Shown here: piece after piece, positions 29,923 through 38,577 of the stretch
Layout of the letters: the number at the start of each line of letters is the position of its first letter
Position numbering within the stretch: the first letter of the stretch is position 1
Assembly: GCA_007693725.1 (NCBI GenBank)
Contig: REDD01000144.1
Coordinates: forward strand, 1 to 55,507
Source: Phycisphaeraceae bacterium
Lineage (GTDB): Bacteria; Planctomycetota; Phycisphaerae; Phycisphaerales; UBA1924
Direction of reading: 5' to 3'
DNA length: 55,507 nucleotides
The notes under the pieces: model-generated
The model's database searches: none
What the model was told of the DNA's origin: nothing
What the model saw: only the letters and a program-made list of their open reading frames with translations
Translations under genes and position numbers: made by a program

Positions 29923-30765
29923 TCAGAGCGAAGCCGGCAGGACAAGGTCGCCGGAAGTGATCGCGGGGGCATCCGGGACACGCAGGGTCAGCCGCCCGAC
30001 CGATTCGTTCAGATCGACGCGCTCGAGGGTGACCGTGCCGAGGAACCGCCCCTCCCGCACGACATTCAGCCGCATCCGATTGGCGAGCCGATCGTTCGTG
30101 CCCGCATCGATGCTCACGAGCAGATCGTTGTTCGCATCGCGCTGCACCCGCAGCACCCGCGCCCGGAACGAAGACGGTGCAGTGGCGACGGCATCGGCCC
30201 GTCCGGCGGTAGGACCACCCGCAAGGGTCTGCTCAAGCTCGACCACCTGCTCGCGCAGTGCCCGCAGCGTGCCATCCTTCGCCTCGATCTCGCTTTCAAG
30301 GTCAGAAAGACGGTCGGTCAATTCCAGTTCACGCCGCTGCAACGCGAGTTCGCGCTGGCGGAGCGTGCCGATCTCGACCTGGAAACCGCGGAGCACCTCG
30401 ACCATCGAGTCGATGCGTGCCGCGTAGTCGTCGATGCTCGTCTGGTACGCCTGCTCGGCGATGTTCAGACGCTTGTTCTCGGCCAGCAGACGGTTGTTGT
30501 CCGTCCGCAGCGCGTTCATCGAGGTCCGTGTCTCGGTGAGCGAGGCTTGGAGTGACTCGACCTGACGCTCAAGAGCATCGCGGGCGCTCGCCTCGGTCGC
30601 GGCCGAACGCTGTGCGGTCGACTCCGCATTGGCGGCTCGGGCTCGTGCCCCGTCAAGCTCGGCGCGGATCGCATCGGCGTTGGATGTGTACGCGATGGTC
30701 AAACCCGAAAGCAGCACGCCCAGCACCGCAGTCAAGACAACCAGCAACTTGGTCAAGATGTGCAA
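29923..30765 (-). CDS. Membrane-anchored coiled-coil protein with MreC-like layout
   Basis: A 280-residue protein. One N-terminal membrane helix at about 5-26, then a long coiled coil at about 30-190, rich in Leu/Glu/Arg heptads (LERQVESLQASLTETRTSM, LREQVVELEQTL), a Gly/Ala linker near 190-200, and a small beta domain to the end (ARVLRVQRDANNDLLVSIDAG, GRFLGTVTLERVDLNESVGRL). TM, coiled coil and two small beta-sheet parts is the same order as in MreC. The identity to MreC is not shown, only the architecture and the position two genes upstream of mreB. Function unknown. Confidence 0.7.
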   Translation of the reverse strand: MHILTKLLVVLTAVLGVLLSGLTIAYTSNADAIRAELDGARARAANAESTAQRSAATEASARDALERQVESLQASLTETRTSMNALRTDNNRLLAENKRLNIAEQAYQTSIDDYAARIDSMVEVLRGFQVEIGTLRQRELALQRRELELTDRLSDLESEIEAKDGTLRALREQVVELEQTLAGGPTAGRADAVATAPSSFRARVLRVQRDANNDLLVSIDAGTNDRLANRMRLNVVREGRFLGTVTLERVDLNESVGRLTLRVPDAPAITSGDLVLPASL

Positions 30766-31040: not shown

Positions 31041-32207
31041 TCATCGCCCGCGACGATCCGACCCCTCCAGGACTTTCAGCAGCCCCGCCGCCGCCGAGAC
31101 ACGCACGATCTCGTCCTCATCCCCCAGCATCCGCTCCAGAATCTTCACATCCTCGTTCCGACGGGTTTCCGACAGCACGAAGGCCACCTGAGCCCGCACC
31201 GCCGGTTGCGGGTCGCGGGCGTACTGCAATCCCACATACCAGCCGTCCGGATACCCGAGCTGAGCCAGCGAACGCGCGGCGGCGAGGCGCAATTCCTTGG
31301 GATAAAGATAGATACGACGCATCGGATCCGGATGCTCCGTCGTCCCCGGAGCGATGCGGGTCACCAGCCGCACCAGTTCCGCCGCGGCGTCCGCGTCCCT
31401 GATCTCACCCAGAATCTGCGCGGCCAGCACCGATGCCTCGAGTTCCTCCGTCGCCGCGGGGTACAGCGCCGCACGGATCGCATTCCGGGCCGACTCATCC
31501 CCCAGTTTCGCAAGCGCTTCCCCGATCTGAAGACGAAGCAGCCGAATCTCCGTCGCAGGCAGCACATCCGCATCCGAGGATTGCAGGCGGCGCGAGGCAT
31601 CGAGCAGCAGCGGCACCGCCGAACGCTCCCCGAGTTCACCCAGCACGAACGCCGCCACTTTCCGCTCCCGCACGCTCCCCCTCATCAGCGCCTCGCTCAC
31701 GGGCGTCAGGTCCACCGATTCCCCGAACCGGGTCAGGGCGTACATCGCGGCGATGCGCACCGATCCGTCGTGATCCCGCAGAAGCGGGCGGACCAGCGGT
31801 GCGGTCTCCTTCAGACGCAAACGCCCCGCGACCATCGCAGCGCTGTACCGAACCCCCAGATTTTCATCCGCCAGACCGGTCCGCACGAAGGGCTCCACCC
31901 GCGTCGGCACATTCGACATGCCCTCGAGCGCATTCGCACGCAGCAACGCCCACTCCGAGAGCGCCGCATTCTCCAGAACGCTCAGCGCCTGCTCGCGCAG
32001 GCGTGAACGCTCCAGAACATCCAGATCGATGGCGCCGGAGCGAGGTGGCGGCGATTGCGTCGTCGGGCGCGCTGCCCCCGGCGTGCCCGCAGAGCCGATC
32101 GTTTCCGTCGTCCACCCGTCGTTGGAGCTCTGACAGCCGCCGAGCAGGAGGCCTGTGGTCACACATGCAGTCAGCAGCGTTCGTGTCGGAAATTGTCTGT
32201 GCTTCAC
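31041..32207 (-). CDS. HEAT-repeat lipoprotein
   Basis: A 388-residue secreted lipoprotein. The start is the GTG at 32207, which overlaps the lnt stop by 4 nt (GTGA) and leads straight into a lipoprotein signal (LLTACVTTGLLLGGCQSSN, lipidated Cys about residue 25). After a Ser/Thr/Pro-rich spacer come helical HEAT-like repeats, roughly residues 60-385, each carrying an alternating Leu/Ala/Arg pattern (VRYSAAMVAGRL, VRIAAMYALTRFGE, VRAQVAFVLSETR, VRVSAAAGLLKVLEG). HEAT solenoids act as protein-binding scaffolds. Direct coupling to lnt, which acylates lipoproteins, is notable. Function unknown. Confidence 0.8.
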   Translation of the reverse strand: MKHRQFPTRTLLTACVTTGLLLGGCQSSNDGWTTETIGSAGTPGAARPTTQSPPPRSGAIDLDVLERSRLREQALSVLENAALSEWALLRANALEGMSNVPTRVEPFVRTGLADENLGVRYSAAMVAGRLRLKETAPLVRPLLRDHDGSVRIAAMYALTRFGESVDLTPVSEALMRGSVRERKVAAFVLGELGERSAVPLLLDASRRLQSSDADVLPATEIRLLRLQIGEALAKLGDESARNAIRAALYPAATEELEASVLAAQILGEIRDADAAAELVRLVTRIAPGTTEHPDPMRRIYLYPKELRLAAARSLAQLGYPDGWYVGLQYARDPQPAVRAQVAFVLSETRRNEDVKILERMLGDEDEIVRVSAAAGLLKVLEGSDRRGR

Positions 32208-33991
32208 GCGGCGCCTCCGGGTGCATCGTTCGTCTTTTCTGCCATCGGTTCGCGTGACGATCGCGAGCCACTTCCCGCCCGAATCACCGGAACAAGCAGG
32301 CAAACCGAGAGGCCGAGGCAGATCCAGCCGACCAGGTTGCCGACCCGTCCGTACGCCGTGACACCCGCTCCGGGTTCGACCGCACCGACAATCACCCCCG
32401 CCCGCTGCTCATCACCCCGCCCGCCCGGACGCATGCTCCAGTCATCATCCAGCACCGACTGCGGCCCACGGATCAGCACCCGCCCGCGAGCATCGATCAC
32501 CGCGCTGATCCCCGTATTCGCCGACCGCACCATCGGCGTCCCCAACTCCACGCACCGCCACCGCGAGACCAGCAGGTGGTGGGCTCGACCGCCGGGATGA
32601 CCGCCAAACCACCCGTCGTTCGTCAGGTTCAGCAGGACATCCGCCCGCCTCTCCGCCCCCTCGAAGACCAGCCGACGGCATACCCGGCTGATGGTCGCCT
32701 CGAAGCAGATCGGCGTGGCCAGCCGGATGGTCCGCCCATCGCGGGTCTCAACGCTCAGCACGACCGGCGTTTCCCCGGCATCGAGATCGAACGCCATCCC
32801 CGCCGCCCCGAACGACAGCAGACGCGACTCCAGCCACTTCCAATTCGAGATGTACGGCATCACCTCGCCGAAGGGCGTCAGGTGCATCTTGTCGTACCGC
32901 TGCGCCTCGATCACCCCGTCGGTCACCACGAACGCGCTGTTGTAGGTGCCGTCCCACACATCGACGAACCGATCCCCGCCGGCGCTCTCGATGCGAAACC
33001 CGTCGTACCCGCGCGCACCGATGATCATCGGAATCGAGAGCTGAGCGGAGATCTGTCGCATGGTCGTGTCGAACAGCAGCGGCTCGACATCGTGCCCGGG
33101 GTACAGCCCCTCGTAGTGAGCCCGGAGTTCGGCGAGCGCATCCTCGGAAAGCGTCGGCCCCGGGAACAATGTCTCCGGCCAGACGATCAGGTCCGGCGAC
33201 GGCTCATGCATCACCGCCTCGAAAGAAAGAGTGATCAATCGGCGCATCGTGTCGATGCGGTCCTCAAGCGACCACGCGCCACGGATCGTCTGCGGCAGAC
33301 TCGTCTGCACCACCCCGATACGGACCGGCGCCCGCTCCGAAGATGCAGCGGTGCTCCCGCCGATCACCGAGAGAACCACGCTACACGCGGTGATGCACGC
33401 GCCCGCGATGCCGATGTTCCTCCAGCGGTGCGTCTCGCAATTCCGGCAGGCAATCGCGCAGGCGAGCAGTGCCGAGGCGCTGCACACAATCAGCGAGAGC
33501 GCGTACACGCCGAAGACCGAAGCGCCGCGCGAGAACCACTCCCATTCGATCATTGGATGCGCGAGCAGAAACCACGGATAGCCGTGCCAGACGACCTCGC
33601 CGCGCAGCATTTCGAGCCCGGTCCAGACCACCGGGGCGCCGAGCCAGTACACCCAGTCGCGCGTGCGTGCGAGCCGGGCCATCATCCAGACGAAAATCCC
33701 CGGCCACAGCGACAGATACAGCGCAAGCGGCGGGAGCCCGAGCGCGGAGATGCCCCCAATCCACGAGTGATGCAGCGCCCACATCGGCATAGTCGCCGCC
33801 GAAACGCCGACGGCGCACCACAGCGGGCGCGAGCAGCCCCGGGCCGCAAGGAGCAGCGGGACCGGCGCGAGCACGACCAGCCACCAGAGGTCGGTGGGGG
33901 GGTACGCAAGCCCGAACAGCAGCGAAAAGATAACCCCGAAAAGAAGGCCCCGAACGAATGAGCGTGTGCGAGTGCGTTCGCGCTCCATCAT
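32204..33991 (-). CDS. lnt: Apolipoprotein N-acyltransferase
   Basis: A 595-residue inner-membrane enzyme completing lipoprotein maturation. The N-terminal part has several membrane helices (about residues 10-220), the rest is the nitrilase-like periplasmic domain with the E-K-C triad: Glu in DLIVWPETLFP near 272, Lys in YDKMHLTPFGEVMPY near 374, Cys in TPICFEATISRV near 434. It is longer than the usual 510 residues. Overlaps accD (4 nt) on the 5' side and the lipoprotein gene (4 nt) on the 3' side. Confidence 0.92.
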   Translation of the reverse strand: MMERERTRTRSFVRGLLFGVIFSLLFGLAYPPTDLWWLVVLAPVPLLLAARGCSRPLWCAVGVSAATMPMWALHHSWIGGISALGLPPLALYLSLWPGIFVWMMARLARTRDWVYWLGAPVVWTGLEMLRGEVVWHGYPWFLLAHPMIEWEWFSRGASVFGVYALSLIVCSASALLACAIACRNCETHRWRNIGIAGACITACSVVLSVIGGSTAASSERAPVRIGVVQTSLPQTIRGAWSLEDRIDTMRRLITLSFEAVMHEPSPDLIVWPETLFPGPTLSEDALAELRAHYEGLYPGHDVEPLLFDTTMRQISAQLSIPMIIGARGYDGFRIESAGGDRFVDVWDGTYNSAFVVTDGVIEAQRYDKMHLTPFGEVMPYISNWKWLESRLLSFGAAGMAFDLDAGETPVVLSVETRDGRTIRLATPICFEATISRVCRRLVFEGAERRADVLLNLTNDGWFGGHPGGRAHHLLVSRWRCVELGTPMVRSANTGISAVIDARGRVLIRGPQSVLDDDWSMRPGGRGDEQRAGVIVGAVEPGAGVTAYGRVGNLVGWICLGLSVCLLVPVIRAGSGSRSSREPMAEKTNDAPGGAA

Positions 33992-34830
33992 TTGTTCGCA
34001 AAGTCGATCAGCCGTGCGATCTCGTTGCGCAACTCACGACGCGGAACCACCCGGTCCACCATGCCCGCATCGAGCAGAAACTCGCTCGTCTGGAATCCTT
34101 CGGGAAGATCCTGCCGGATCGTCTGCTTGATCACCCGGGGACCGGCGAAGCCGATCAGGGCGCGCGGCTCCGCGAGGATCACATCTCCCAGCATCGCGAA
34201 CGAGGCCGTGACCCCGCCCGTCGTCGGGTCCGTCAGCACGCTGATGTACAGGCCGCCCGCATCGTCGAAACGCGCCAGCGCCGCGGCAGTCTTGGCCATC
34301 TGCATCAGCGACAGACCCGATTCCTGCATCCGTGCGCCGCCGGAAGCGCTCACGATCACCATCGGAAGATCCCGCTCCGTCGCGTACTCGATCGAGCGCG
34401 TGATCTTCTCCCCGACCACACTCGAAAGCGTGCCCATGAAGAAGTTCAGGTCCAGAACGCACAGCATCACGGCACGCCCCTTGATGAACCCCTCGCCGCA
34501 CTGCACGCCCTCATCCTCGCCCGTGCGCTCCTGCTCCTTCGCCAGCCGGTCTTTGTACGGCCGGGAATCGACGAACTTGAGCGGGTCGTTGGTGAACAGG
34601 TTCGTGAACATCGACACGAACGAACCGTCATCGAGGAGTTGCCGCACACGCTCAACCGCGCCGATCCGGAAGTGATGATCGCACTCCGGGCAGCAGTGCA
34701 GATTGGACTCCATCTGCTTGCGGTAGATCATCTGTGCGCACGCCGGGCAGCGCAACCACAATCCCTCGGGCACCCGCGTCGCGCGAGCGGGCTTCAGTTC
34801 CGTCCAGGATCGGACCGGGGCGCGTGACAT
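33988..34830 (-). CDS. accD: Acetyl-CoA carboxylase carboxyltransferase beta subunit
   Basis: A 280-residue AccD of the malonyl-CoA-forming enzyme that starts fatty-acid synthesis. The N-terminal zinc ribbon is LRCPACAQM near residues 26-34 and CCPECDHHF near 46-54. The crotonase-like body has VSASGGARMQESGLSLMQM near 150 and DPTTGGVTASFAMLGDV near 190, lining the CoA and biotin pockets. accA is not nearby. It follows the dead histidine-phosphatase gene by 4 nt and overlaps lnt by 4 nt, so all four genes (including the HEAT lipoprotein) look like one translationally coupled unit. Confidence 0.95.
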   Translation of the reverse strand: MSRAPVRSWTELKPARATRVPEGLWLRCPACAQMIYRKQMESNLHCCPECDHHFRIGAVERVRQLLDDGSFVSMFTNLFTNDPLKFVDSRPYKDRLAKEQERTGEDEGVQCGEGFIKGRAVMLCVLDLNFFMGTLSSVVGEKITRSIEYATERDLPMVIVSASGGARMQESGLSLMQMAKTAAALARFDDAGGLYISVLTDPTTGGVTASFAMLGDVILAEPRALIGFAGPRVIKQTIRQDLPEGFQTSEFLLDAGMVDRVVPRRELRNEIARLIDFANK

Positions 34831-34834
34831 CGTT

Positions 34835-35467
34835 TCAGGCGCTCGCCTTCAGTTCATCGAGTGCGGTGCGAAACACCGAAAGCTCCAGCAATCGACGCTC
34901 GTGCATCGGACCGTCCTCGATCAGGCGATGCACCTCGCTGGTCGGCATGCGATGCATGATCGAGCGAAGCACGCCGTACTCCAGCGGACGCACCACCACG
35001 CCGACGCACTTGCCCACTTGCTTGTCCAGCGCCTTCAGCAGCGCCGCCAGCAGCCGGGCCTCCGCCGCGAAGAAGGTCTCGCCCTCCGGCGGATTCACCG
35101 AGGACGGATCCTGCCGCCACTGGCGGTACGACTTCGAGAAACGCTCGTCGAGCTCCTCTTCCAGCATCCCCTCCCACAGCCCGAGCCGGAACGCGCCGAG
35201 CCCGGGGCAGACCTTCGTCTTCCCGCCGCAGCGATCCGCCAGGATCCGCGCGGTCTCCGTGCTCGCCTCATCCGGCGCGCAGACGATCGTCGACAGCGCC
35301 AGATCCGGATGGGTCAGGGTGATGTGGGTCACGGTGGCACGCACCACGGATCGCCCGGGATCGCTCAGCGGCAGATCCGTCGATCCCTGCAGGCGGCCGA
35401 CCTCTTCCCACTCCGTCCGCCCGGAGCGGGCGAACAACAGGTCTATTTCTGACTTCTTGGCCATCAA
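34835..35467 (-). CDS. Histidine-phosphatase-fold pseudoenzyme upstream of accD
   Basis: A 210-residue member of the phosphoglycerate-mutase/histidine phosphatase superfamily. The family opening LxLxRHGxTEWN here reads LLFARSGRTEWEEV: the catalytic His is Ser15. The DLxRAxxTA site reads APDEASTETARIL with no Arg, and the second histidine of the VxHG motif is replaced (VVVRPLEYGVLR). The Glu loop GLWEG is kept. So the fold is intact but the catalytic residues are lost, which makes phosphatase activity improbable. It precedes accD by 4 nt. Probable binding or regulatory role; no function should be assigned yet. Confidence 0.85.
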   Translation of the reverse strand: MMAKKSEIDLLFARSGRTEWEEVGRLQGSTDLPLSDPGRSVVRATVTHITLTHPDLALSTIVCAPDEASTETARILADRCGGKTKVCPGLGAFRLGLWEGMLEEELDERFSKSYRQWRQDPSSVNPPEGETFFAAEARLLAALLKALDKQVGKCVGVVVRPLEYGVLRSIMHRMPTSEVHRLIEDGPMHERRLLELSVFRTALDELKASA

Positions 35468-35570: not shown

Positions 35571-36302
35571 TCATTTTCCCCGAATCGCCCGGATCACGCC
35601 GCTCCGCTCCCCCGAGGGCCGCCCGAACACCGCCGACGCCGCCACGAGGACATCGCACCCCGCCTCGCGGCACGCCCCCGCGGTCTCCGTCCCGATCCCC
35701 CCGTCCATCTCGATCCGGACCTCGCCGCCGACCCGCTCACGCAGCCAACGGACCTTCTCCAGCACCTCGCCCATGAACGACTGCCCCGAGAAGCCGGGGT
35801 TCACACTCATCACCAGAATCAGGTCGAAGTCGCTCAGGAACGGCTCGATCGCCTCCACCGGGGTGCCCGGGTTCAGGGCGAGCCCGGCGGTCATCCCCGC
35901 CTCCCGGATCCGCGCCCCGACCGCGCGCGGGTCGTACCCCTCGGAGAGCGGGCTGCGACCCGTCCCGGAGTGCCGGTCGACCGCGGGCTCGATGTGGATC
36001 GTCAGGTGGTCCGCCCCGGCATCGCGGAACGGCGCGATGTACTGCTCCGGATCCGTGACCATCAGGTGTACATCGAGAAACGCTTCGGGCAGCATCCGCC
36101 GCAGACTCGCGCACAAAGCGGGTCCCATCGTCAGATTCGGCACGAAGTGCCCGTCCATGACATCGAGGTGCAGCAGGTCCGCCCCGCCCTCCGACAGCAC
36201 ATGGCGGCACTCCTCCCCCAGCCGCGCGAAATCCGCCGACAGGATCGACGGAGCGACCAGCGGAAGCCGTTTCGGATGCAGGAAGAGATTCTCGGTGCCC
36301 AT
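35571..36302 (-). CDS. rpe: Ribulose-phosphate 3-epimerase
   Basis: A 243-residue TIM-barrel enzyme that interconverts ribulose 5-phosphate and xylulose 5-phosphate. Key motifs are APSILSADFARLGEE near residue 16, LLHLDVMDGHFVPNLTMGPA near 43 with catalytic Asp and metal-binding His, VDRHSG-like loop near 108, VMSVNPGFSGQ near 165 and EMDGGIGTETA near 196 with the second catalytic Asp. It begins 9 nt after the glutamine amidotransferase gene on the same strand. Confidence 0.95.
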   Translation of the reverse strand: MGTENLFLHPKRLPLVAPSILSADFARLGEECRHVLSEGGADLLHLDVMDGHFVPNLTMGPALCASLRRMLPEAFLDVHLMVTDPEQYIAPFRDAGADHLTIHIEPAVDRHSGTGRSPLSEGYDPRAVGARIREAGMTAGLALNPGTPVEAIEPFLSDFDLILVMSVNPGFSGQSFMGEVLEKVRWLRERVGGEVRIEMDGGIGTETAGACREAGCDVLVAASAVFGRPSGERSGVIRAIRGK

Positions 36303-36311
36303 GCGTGCAGA

Positions 36312-37088
36312 CTACCGCTTCCCGTCGGCGTCCCGCGCCGCGAGGCAGGCCCGGACGAGTTCGTCGAACAGCCCCTGACCCAGCGCCCCATCCCCGGACC
36401 GCTCCGGATGCCACTGCACCCCGATCCAGAACCGGCGCGCGGGATGGTCCACCGCTTCGATGACCCCATCCTCCGACCGGCTCAGGACACGCAACGGTCC
36501 CACGCTCCGCAGCGCCTGCCGGTGGTGGCTCGTGACCACGCCCTCCAGCCGCCGGTCCGCCGGGAGATCCGGAGCCGCCCGAATCGGGTGGGGGCGGTCG
36601 GACCAGTGGTCCGCGTGGCTCGGCGTGTCGTCGGGCATGTGCTGGTTCAGTGTTCCGCCCGAGACCAGCCCCATCATCTGCATCCCGAGACAGACCCCCA
36701 GAACCGGTGTCTCCGGGCACGCCTGATCCAGATGGCGCAGCAGGCATGTCTCGACCCTCTGGCGCAGCGGGTCGATCGGCTTGGCCTTGGGGTGCGTCGG
36801 CTCTCCGAACGGCTCCATCGCCGGGTCGTCCCCGCCGGTGAAGACGAAGCCCTCGCACAGCTCGACCCATGCCCGCACCATCCGTTCCAACGCGGCATCG
36901 TTCGGGATGTCAGCCGGGGCGAGGATGATCGGCAGCCCCCCGGCACGGGTGATGCAGTCGATGTACGCCCTGCGAACCCGCGCCTCGCGCTCATCGAGGT
37001 TGGGCGTGATGCCGATGAGCGGGGGGGTTCCGGGGGTTCCGGCGTGTCGAGCGTGGTCGGCGCTGCTCTGGGGGCTGTGTTGCATCAT
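36312..37088 (-). CDS. Class I glutamine amidotransferase-like hydrolase (peptidase C26)
   Basis: A 258-residue protein of the gamma-glutamyl hydrolase/PuuD family. Nucleophilic Cys is in [14 protein letters not shown] near residue 127, His/Glu in [11 protein letters not shown] near 220, and the family opening is [11 protein letters not shown] near 23. These enzymes cleave gamma-glutamyl bonds or supply ammonia. The start is probably ATG at 37088 (or 37085); earlier ATGs would overlap the divergent thrC gene. The N-terminal 20 residues run through the G-rich element at 37021-37042 and are low complexity (HAGTPGTPP). Confidence 0.83.
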
Positions 37089-37122
37089 CGGTATCATCGG
37101 CCTGAGAGAGTGTGACGCCAGC

Positions 37123-38577
37123 ATGAACCCTTGGACCCATCTCCGTTCGATCGATCCTGCGGATTCCGGGCTGCTGCCCGCCGATCGGACATCATTTCTC
37201 GCCGACGACGGGCACACCCTGCTCGATGTCGTCTACGACTGGGAGCGGGCACACCGCGAACTCGGGTTCGGACGGGATCCCGCACTCTTCGCGAAGCGGC
37301 TCGCGCTGGGCGCGGCCTGCGCCACGGGATCGTCGGAAGCGATGCTGGATGCTTCGGGCGTCTGGCGGTTCCGCGAACTGCTGCCCTTTGTGCGCGCGCC
37401 GCACGACACTGTGAGCGTCGGCGAGGGAAAGACGCTCCTCCAGCGGAACGATGCGCTGGCGCGCCTGCTCGGTTTCGAGCCATGGCGTATGCCCGACGGC
37501 TCCCGCTCCGACCGTCCGGGGCTGTTTCTCCAGTACGAGGGGTTGAATCCGAGCGGGTCGTTCAAGGACAACGGCATGACCGCCGCATTCTCGCACGCCC
37601 GCATGGTGGGGGCGAAGAAGGTCGTGTGTGCTTCCACGGGCAACACCTCCGCGAGTCTGGCCCTGTACGCGAGCGCGGCGGGGGTGCCGGGGTTCGTGCT
37701 GGTGGGCTCGGGCAAGATCGCGATGGGCAAGCTCGCGCAGGCGCTGGACTATGGGGCGCGGACGCTGCAGGTCGATGGCGATTTCGATGCCTGCCTTGCG
37801 CGCGTGCGGGAACTGAGCACCGACCGCCCTGAACTGGGCGTGTACCTGATGAACTCGATCAATCCGTTCCGGCTCGAAGGCCAGAAGACGATCATGTTCC
37901 GCGTGCTCGATGCGCTGGGATGGCAGCCCCCGGATTGGGTGGTTGTTCCGGGCGGCAATCTCGGCAATTGCTCCGCCTTCGCCAAGGCGTTTCTGGAGTT
38001 GCACGAGTTGGGAATGATCGACCGGATCCCGCGTCTGGCGGTGATCAACGCCTCCGGCGCACGGACGCTCGACCGCATCTACAACGAGCTGGGCATCCGC
38101 TGGAACCACGGTCGGTGCGACAATGCGTCCATCCGCACGGAATATTCCCGGATGGATGCGGCGGGCGAGCGTGCCGCGACGGTCGCCACCGCGATCCAGA
38201 TCAACCGGCCCGTGAATCTGCCCAAGGCGCTGCGGGCGCTGGATGTCATGGACGGCGTGGTGCGGAGCGTGGATGACCACTGCATCATGGAGCACAAGGC
38301 GCTCGTGGGGCGTCACGGCTTCGGGTGCGAGCCGGCGAGCGCTGCGAGCGTGGCGGGGGCGCGCCGATTGCTCGAAGAGGGCATCATCAGGCCGGACGAG
38401 CGGGTGGTCTGCATCCTGACCGGTCACGCGCTGAAGGATCCGGATGCGACGGTGCGCTACCACGCGATCCACAGGCACGGGCGCGCGGGGGATGTCTCGA
38501 TTCCGCTGGGATGCTCATCGAATCGGCCCGTGCCGGTCGCGGACGATGTCGAGGCGATTTTGCGGGAGATGGGCTGA
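37123..38577 (+). CDS. thrC: Threonine synthase
   Basis: A 484-residue PLP enzyme converting O-phosphohomoserine to threonine. The PLP Lys is in [17 protein letters not shown] near residue 145-155, followed by [19 protein letters not shown] near 170 (phosphate/substrate loop), and [18 protein letters not shown] near 275. The C-terminal part has ILTGHALKD near 430. The start at ATG 37123 gives the family N-terminus; a long upstream frame is antisense to the amidotransferase gene and is not coding. 34 nt separate it from the divergent amidotransferase start. Confidence 0.94.

Follow-up and report, generated by a model that had tools for sequence, protein, structure and literature searches.

A catalytically degenerate histidine phosphatase family conserved beside rpe and accD in Planctomycetota, probably acting as a non-catalytic partner

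Genes at the locus

The window analysed in this study, a 55,507-nucleotide stretch of a Phycisphaeraceae genome (contig REDD01000144.1), carries on its minus strand a gene for a pseudo-histidine-phosphatase of 209 aa (P0001, 34835..35464), with ATG 35464 as start and a stop ending at 34835. The initial annotation had given the span as 34835-35467, placing the stop correctly but the start one codon too far upstream, where 35467 is the first letter of a TTG. The gene ends 4 nt before the ATG of its downstream neighbour accD (33988..34830, minus strand; acetyl-CoA carboxylase carboxyltransferase beta subunit, TIGR00515 386 bits against a cut-off of 317), and upstream of it, across a gap of 106 nt, lies rpe (35571..36302, minus strand; ribulose-phosphate 3-epimerase, TIGR01163 over cut-off). 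Three further genes follow accD on the same strand: lnt (32204..33991; apolipoprotein N-acyltransferase, TIGR00546 over cut-off), a HEAT-repeat lipoprotein gene with the lipobox LLGGC (31041..32207; PF13646), and a gene for a coiled-coil protein (29923..30765), the next member of a block shared at the level of the order. The 4-nt gap before accD and the 4-nt overlaps of accD with lnt (33988-33991) and of lnt with the lipoprotein gene are as first described, the last provided that the lipoprotein gene starts at the GTG at 32207. Immediately upstream of rpe, in the window (36312-37217, minus strand) and likewise in some relatives, lies a gene for a class I glutamine amidotransferase / peptidase C26.

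Loss of the catalytic residues and predicted fold

The window protein matches Pfam His_Phos_1 (PF00300) with E = 1.3e-24 and 87 bits against a cut-off of 21.7, and by sequence profile and histidine phosphatase (HP) fold it belongs to branch 1 of the histidine phosphatase superfamily, but it lacks every catalytic feature of the active branch 1 enzymes. Alignment against active histidine phosphatases of the same class, in the numbering of the 209-aa protein, showed that the catalytic His of RHG is replaced by S14 (R13-S14-G15), leaving Arg13 as the sole remnant of the RHG catalytic site, that A67 (CAPDEASTETA) takes the place of the second phosphate-binding Arg in the 'RAxxTA' loop, and that the second His near the C-terminus is R159 (VVRPLEY). 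The initial annotation had reported these three losses in a phosphatase-fold protein, with the Ser numbered 15, and the alignment bears it out; two more had escaped it, the Asn of TxWN (E20 in the window protein) and the general acid Glu before FGxWEG (A91).

An AlphaFold2 model built from 15 sequences reached a pLDDT of 94.2 and a pTM of 0.90, and Foldseek retrieved the PspA-type phosphoserine phosphatase as best match, together with PhoE, glucosyl-3-phosphoglycerate phosphatase and CobC (probability 1.00, TM <= 0.77); thus the HP fold is predicted to be intact. The metal-independent PspA of Hydrogenobacter thermophilus (PDB 4ij5/4ij6), the best match in both sequence and fold, shares with the window protein the branch 1 fold and the W..P..V..GE region, but PspA has the catalytic set, and the window protein scores 50.8 bits on NCBIfam NF045917 against a cut-off of 350. 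The fold is also shared with the alpha-ribazole phosphatase CobC / PhoE group, whose TIGR03162 is the best NCBIfam match of the window protein, but at 62.7 bits against a cut-off of 162.9, and without the catalytic residues.

In Hydrogenobacter, PspB is an inactive subunit that stabilises active PspA in a heterodimeric phosphoserine phosphatase. PspB resembles the window protein in being a non-catalytic HP homologue with a partner role, and the closest solved structures are those of PspA itself, so that the window protein could likewise be the inactive subunit of a heterodimer, stabilising an active HP encoded elsewhere in the genome. However, PspB pairs with an active HP paralogue, whereas in the window genome (93% complete) no other HP of the CobC/PspA type was found and the neighbours are rpe and accD; the only other His_Phos_1 match is short, covering profile positions 1-77, and many gene-bearing relatives likewise have only short second matches. 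We therefore consider an active HP paralogue a very improbable partner, and a partner of another kind would be needed.

Distribution of the family in Planctomycetota

The searches covered genomes of Planctomycetota. Within the order, 57 of 121 genomes gave matches, 53 of which are orthologues (that of the window counted), and the catalytic His is absent from all 53; the weak RHG-bearing matches in the order (L055-L058) adjoin neither accD nor rpe. A set of closer sequences yielded 14 named loci, all of them in Phycisphaerae (Phycisphaerales/Phycisphaerae metagenome assemblies). A profile built from the order-level sequences (A1) was then used across the class and the other classes of the phylum, and it recovered the family throughout the window's class and in other classes of Planctomycetota. 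Within the class, scores separate the two groups well, with at least about 125 bits for proteins carrying the degenerate motif and at most 111 bits for RHG-bearing phosphatases, but elsewhere in the phylum active phosphatases score up to 127 bits, so that outside the class membership was decided by motif and neighbours. The family is also present in about 130 of 199 genomes of a second class, where its degenerate motif is internally conserved but unlike that of the window's class: RPG for RHG, GLWQG, and EP near the second His.

Members were examined in 134 genomes from many families and at least two classes, and none keeps RHG or the second Arg. In the alignment, all 12 active HPs have both the catalytic His and the second Arg, and none of the 99 family members has either; a His stands in the second-His column of 5/99 members (12/12 active HPs), and the general acid Glu is kept in 55/99. 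RHG is likewise missing from another 46 loci next to rpe, accD or both, the majority of which come from the second class. The same losses and the accD neighbour thus recur in other Phycisphaerae, as the initial annotation had proposed to check, and beyond them as well; orthologues retaining RHG beside accD, the observation that it had set against its own reading, were sought in other families and in another class, and none was found. Sequencing error, chance or local loss is ruled out as the origin of the degenerate motif, because about 130 orthologues in other genomes likewise lack RHG and share the losses. A tree of 81 proteins has a branch, supported at 100/99, that sets all 66 degenerate proteins apart from the active histidine phosphatases; this fits a single ancient loss of catalysis in the family, with the root of the tree not fixed.

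Two variants may be recorded here. In family f92 (L200, L202, L205, L206, L257, L259, L261, L262, L279, L281, L285 and L286) the degenerate phosphate loop reads CGPC, a thioredoxin-like CxxC after a strand, where the window protein has CAPD. One metagenome assembly (G246) holds two pseudophosphatase-accD pairs (L153 and L154), by duplication or contamination.

Conserved residues and the remodelled pocket

Residues conserved across the family include R24, G95 and G99 (99/99), P126, G128 and R137 (98/99), and E129, and P32, W97, W116 and P120 are conserved more in the family than in active HPs. The altered pocket has a conserved form of its own in each class: in the window's class R159-P160 might form salt bridges with D20/D65/E66 in the former phosphate-binding pocket, and R13 might do so with E160-P161 in the second class. 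This within-class conservation exceeds what a plain scaffold would need, and could point to a repurposed enzyme, with new chemistry or a ligand-sensing pocket built from residues particular to each class (for the window's class D20/D65/E66/R159-P160, for the second RPG, N91 and EP at 160-161). We consider this quite unlikely, since a single catalytic set would normally be expected to persist if a reaction were conserved, whereas the two classes have different residues in the pocket and opposite charges around the position of the former second His; the window copy has also lost the acid Glu.

Conservation of the rpe and accD neighbourhood

Among 146 pseudophosphatase loci (a few genomes enter twice), accD adjoins the gene in 129, rpe in 127, and one or both in 142, while neither adjoins any of 20 RHG-bearing phosphatases. 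In all 53 order-level orthologues accD is the next gene downstream, in the same orientation, and most are preceded by rpe, with lnt, the HEAT lipoprotein gene and the coiled-coil gene on the downstream side. Beyond the order the arrangement rpe-X-accD persists while lnt and the HEAT gene have left the neighbourhood; lnt and HEAT are kept only in L149 and L150, from a family (f2) of the window's own order. The conserved neighbourhood anticipated by the initial annotation thus holds for accD, but rpe, as constant a neighbour, had been overlooked. The linkage of the pseudophosphatase gene to lnt and the HEAT lipoprotein proved local to the order, so that nothing in particular speaks for a role in lipoprotein lipidation, and a role tied to lnt or the lipoprotein is rejected, as these are neighbours only within the order. 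Nor is the 4-nt translational coupling a conserved trait, with an overlap in only about 6 of the 53 order-level orthologues.

Exceptions occur on both sides. The gene adjoins accD without rpe in seven named loci (L043, L052, L081, L135, L136, L193 and L203), and rpe without accD in L118, L141, L148, L151, L196, L209 and others. The four loci with neither neighbour belong to family f8 (L119, L120, L123 and L124); there it follows pgk (phosphoglycerate kinase), with accD elsewhere in the genomes tested, and in L120 and L123 it precedes a gene for a DeoC/LacD-type aldolase; at one f5 locus (L039:6855-7505, plus strand) a KDPG/KHG aldolase gene replaces rpe upstream of the pseudophosphatase gene and accD. 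The gene has kept its place with rpe and accD while other neighbours came and went, and selection for the association is favoured because the gene stays with accD where rpe has left, stays with rpe where accD has left, and has parted from lnt and HEAT outside the order. On the other hand, inherited gene order may account for some of the linkage, since rpe and accD stay adjacent after loss of the gene in many genomes.

Selection and repeated loss

Pairwise dN/dS of the gene in close relatives was 0.10-0.41, similar to that of rpe and above that of accD, and these values indicate that the pseudophosphatase is under purifying selection. The earlier proposal of a selectively maintained pseudophosphatase beside accD thus agrees with both the substitution rates and the neighbour counts. 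The gene is absent from 16 genomes of the window's family and from other families of the order, where accD is present and rpe often lies directly upstream of it; as these absences are scattered on the AccD tree and need several changes, the gene has been lost more than once in the window's order. Since accD stayed through these losses, the function of the pseudophosphatase is accessory and dispensable.

Such a pattern might also be left by a relic, a decaying former phosphatase with little function that is kept by inherited gene order: several losses in the order have left rpe directly upstream of accD in many genomes, and the pseudophosphatase evolves faster than AccD. We regard this as highly unlikely in view of the purifying selection, the intact reading frames, the strongly conserved residues and the retention across classes.

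Columns of AccD were compared between the 16 gene-lacking and 47 gene-bearing genomes of the window's family, and none separated them above the permutation null. The same comparison of Rpe gave one column above the null, which lies at a highly variable position, has only 9 negatives and is not trusted.

Putative function of the pseudophosphatase

The pseudophosphatase is probably a binding partner or regulator rather than an enzyme, as it has been stripped of its catalytic residues and yet kept across Planctomycetota between rpe and accD. While the partner could be sought on either side, the carboxyltransferase is favoured because accD is immediately downstream in most loci and stays when rpe leaves. 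Our leading proposal, held tentatively and given somewhat less than an even chance, is thus an ancient, catalytically dead HP-fold family of Planctomycetota residing in the rpe-X-accD block and acting as a non-catalytic partner, most likely of the carboxyltransferase, or else of the carbon node formed by rpe and accD. The protein would bind the carboxyltransferase (AccD/AccA) and thereby help it to assemble or tune how much malonyl-CoA it makes, and this might depend on sugar-phosphate metabolism through Rpe, or through PGK/aldolase in one family; it would be an accessory modulator, with accD persisting in lineages that lost it. Against a partnership with AccD, no AccD column tracks loss of the gene, and the f8 gene follows pgk with accD elsewhere.

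The main rival places the partner on the other side: the protein would bind Rpe, or a sugar phosphate, so as to tune lower glycolysis or the pentose phosphate pathway, and accD would only be co-transcribed. The partner could be Rpe because several members have rpe and no accD nearby, these being among the 127 loci with rpe adjacent, and sugar-phosphate metabolism is suggested by the KDPG aldolase gene in the place of rpe in f5 and by pgk upstream in f8, with the DeoC/LacD-type aldolase gene downstream in two loci. However, adjacency to accD persists in the seven named loci without rpe, and the lone separating column of Rpe is the variable one described above. We judge this rival fairly unlikely as it stands.

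Returning to the carboxyltransferase, we infer from sequence and gene order that the pseudophosphatase may regulate acetyl-CoA carboxylase. That it is a regulatory or assembly subunit of the enzyme evolved from a histidine phosphatase, coupling fatty-acid synthesis to the pentose phosphate or glycolytic state, is a possibility we put forward as somewhat unlikely. Plant BADC proteins are inactive BCCP homologues that regulate plastid acetyl-CoA carboxylase. They offer an analogy only, that of a dead enzyme-fold protein regulating acetyl-CoA carboxylase, for their fold is unrelated, and they descend from a carboxylase subunit whereas the pseudophosphatase descends from a phosphatase.

No description of this family was found in the open-access literature; judging from sequence, it appears to be a group of pseudoenzymes that arose among the histidine phosphatases and is widespread in Planctomycetota. 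Annotation by family name would mislead for these proteins, because Pfam places them in the phosphatase superfamily although they lack its catalytic residues. Should the connection with AccD prove true, it would represent an undescribed, phylum-wide control point at the committed step of fatty-acid synthesis, and bacterial pseudoenzyme control of the carboxyltransferase. The retention, loss and relocation of the gene among rpe, accD and pgk make it a directly testable case of a metabolic enzyme turned non-catalytic partner.
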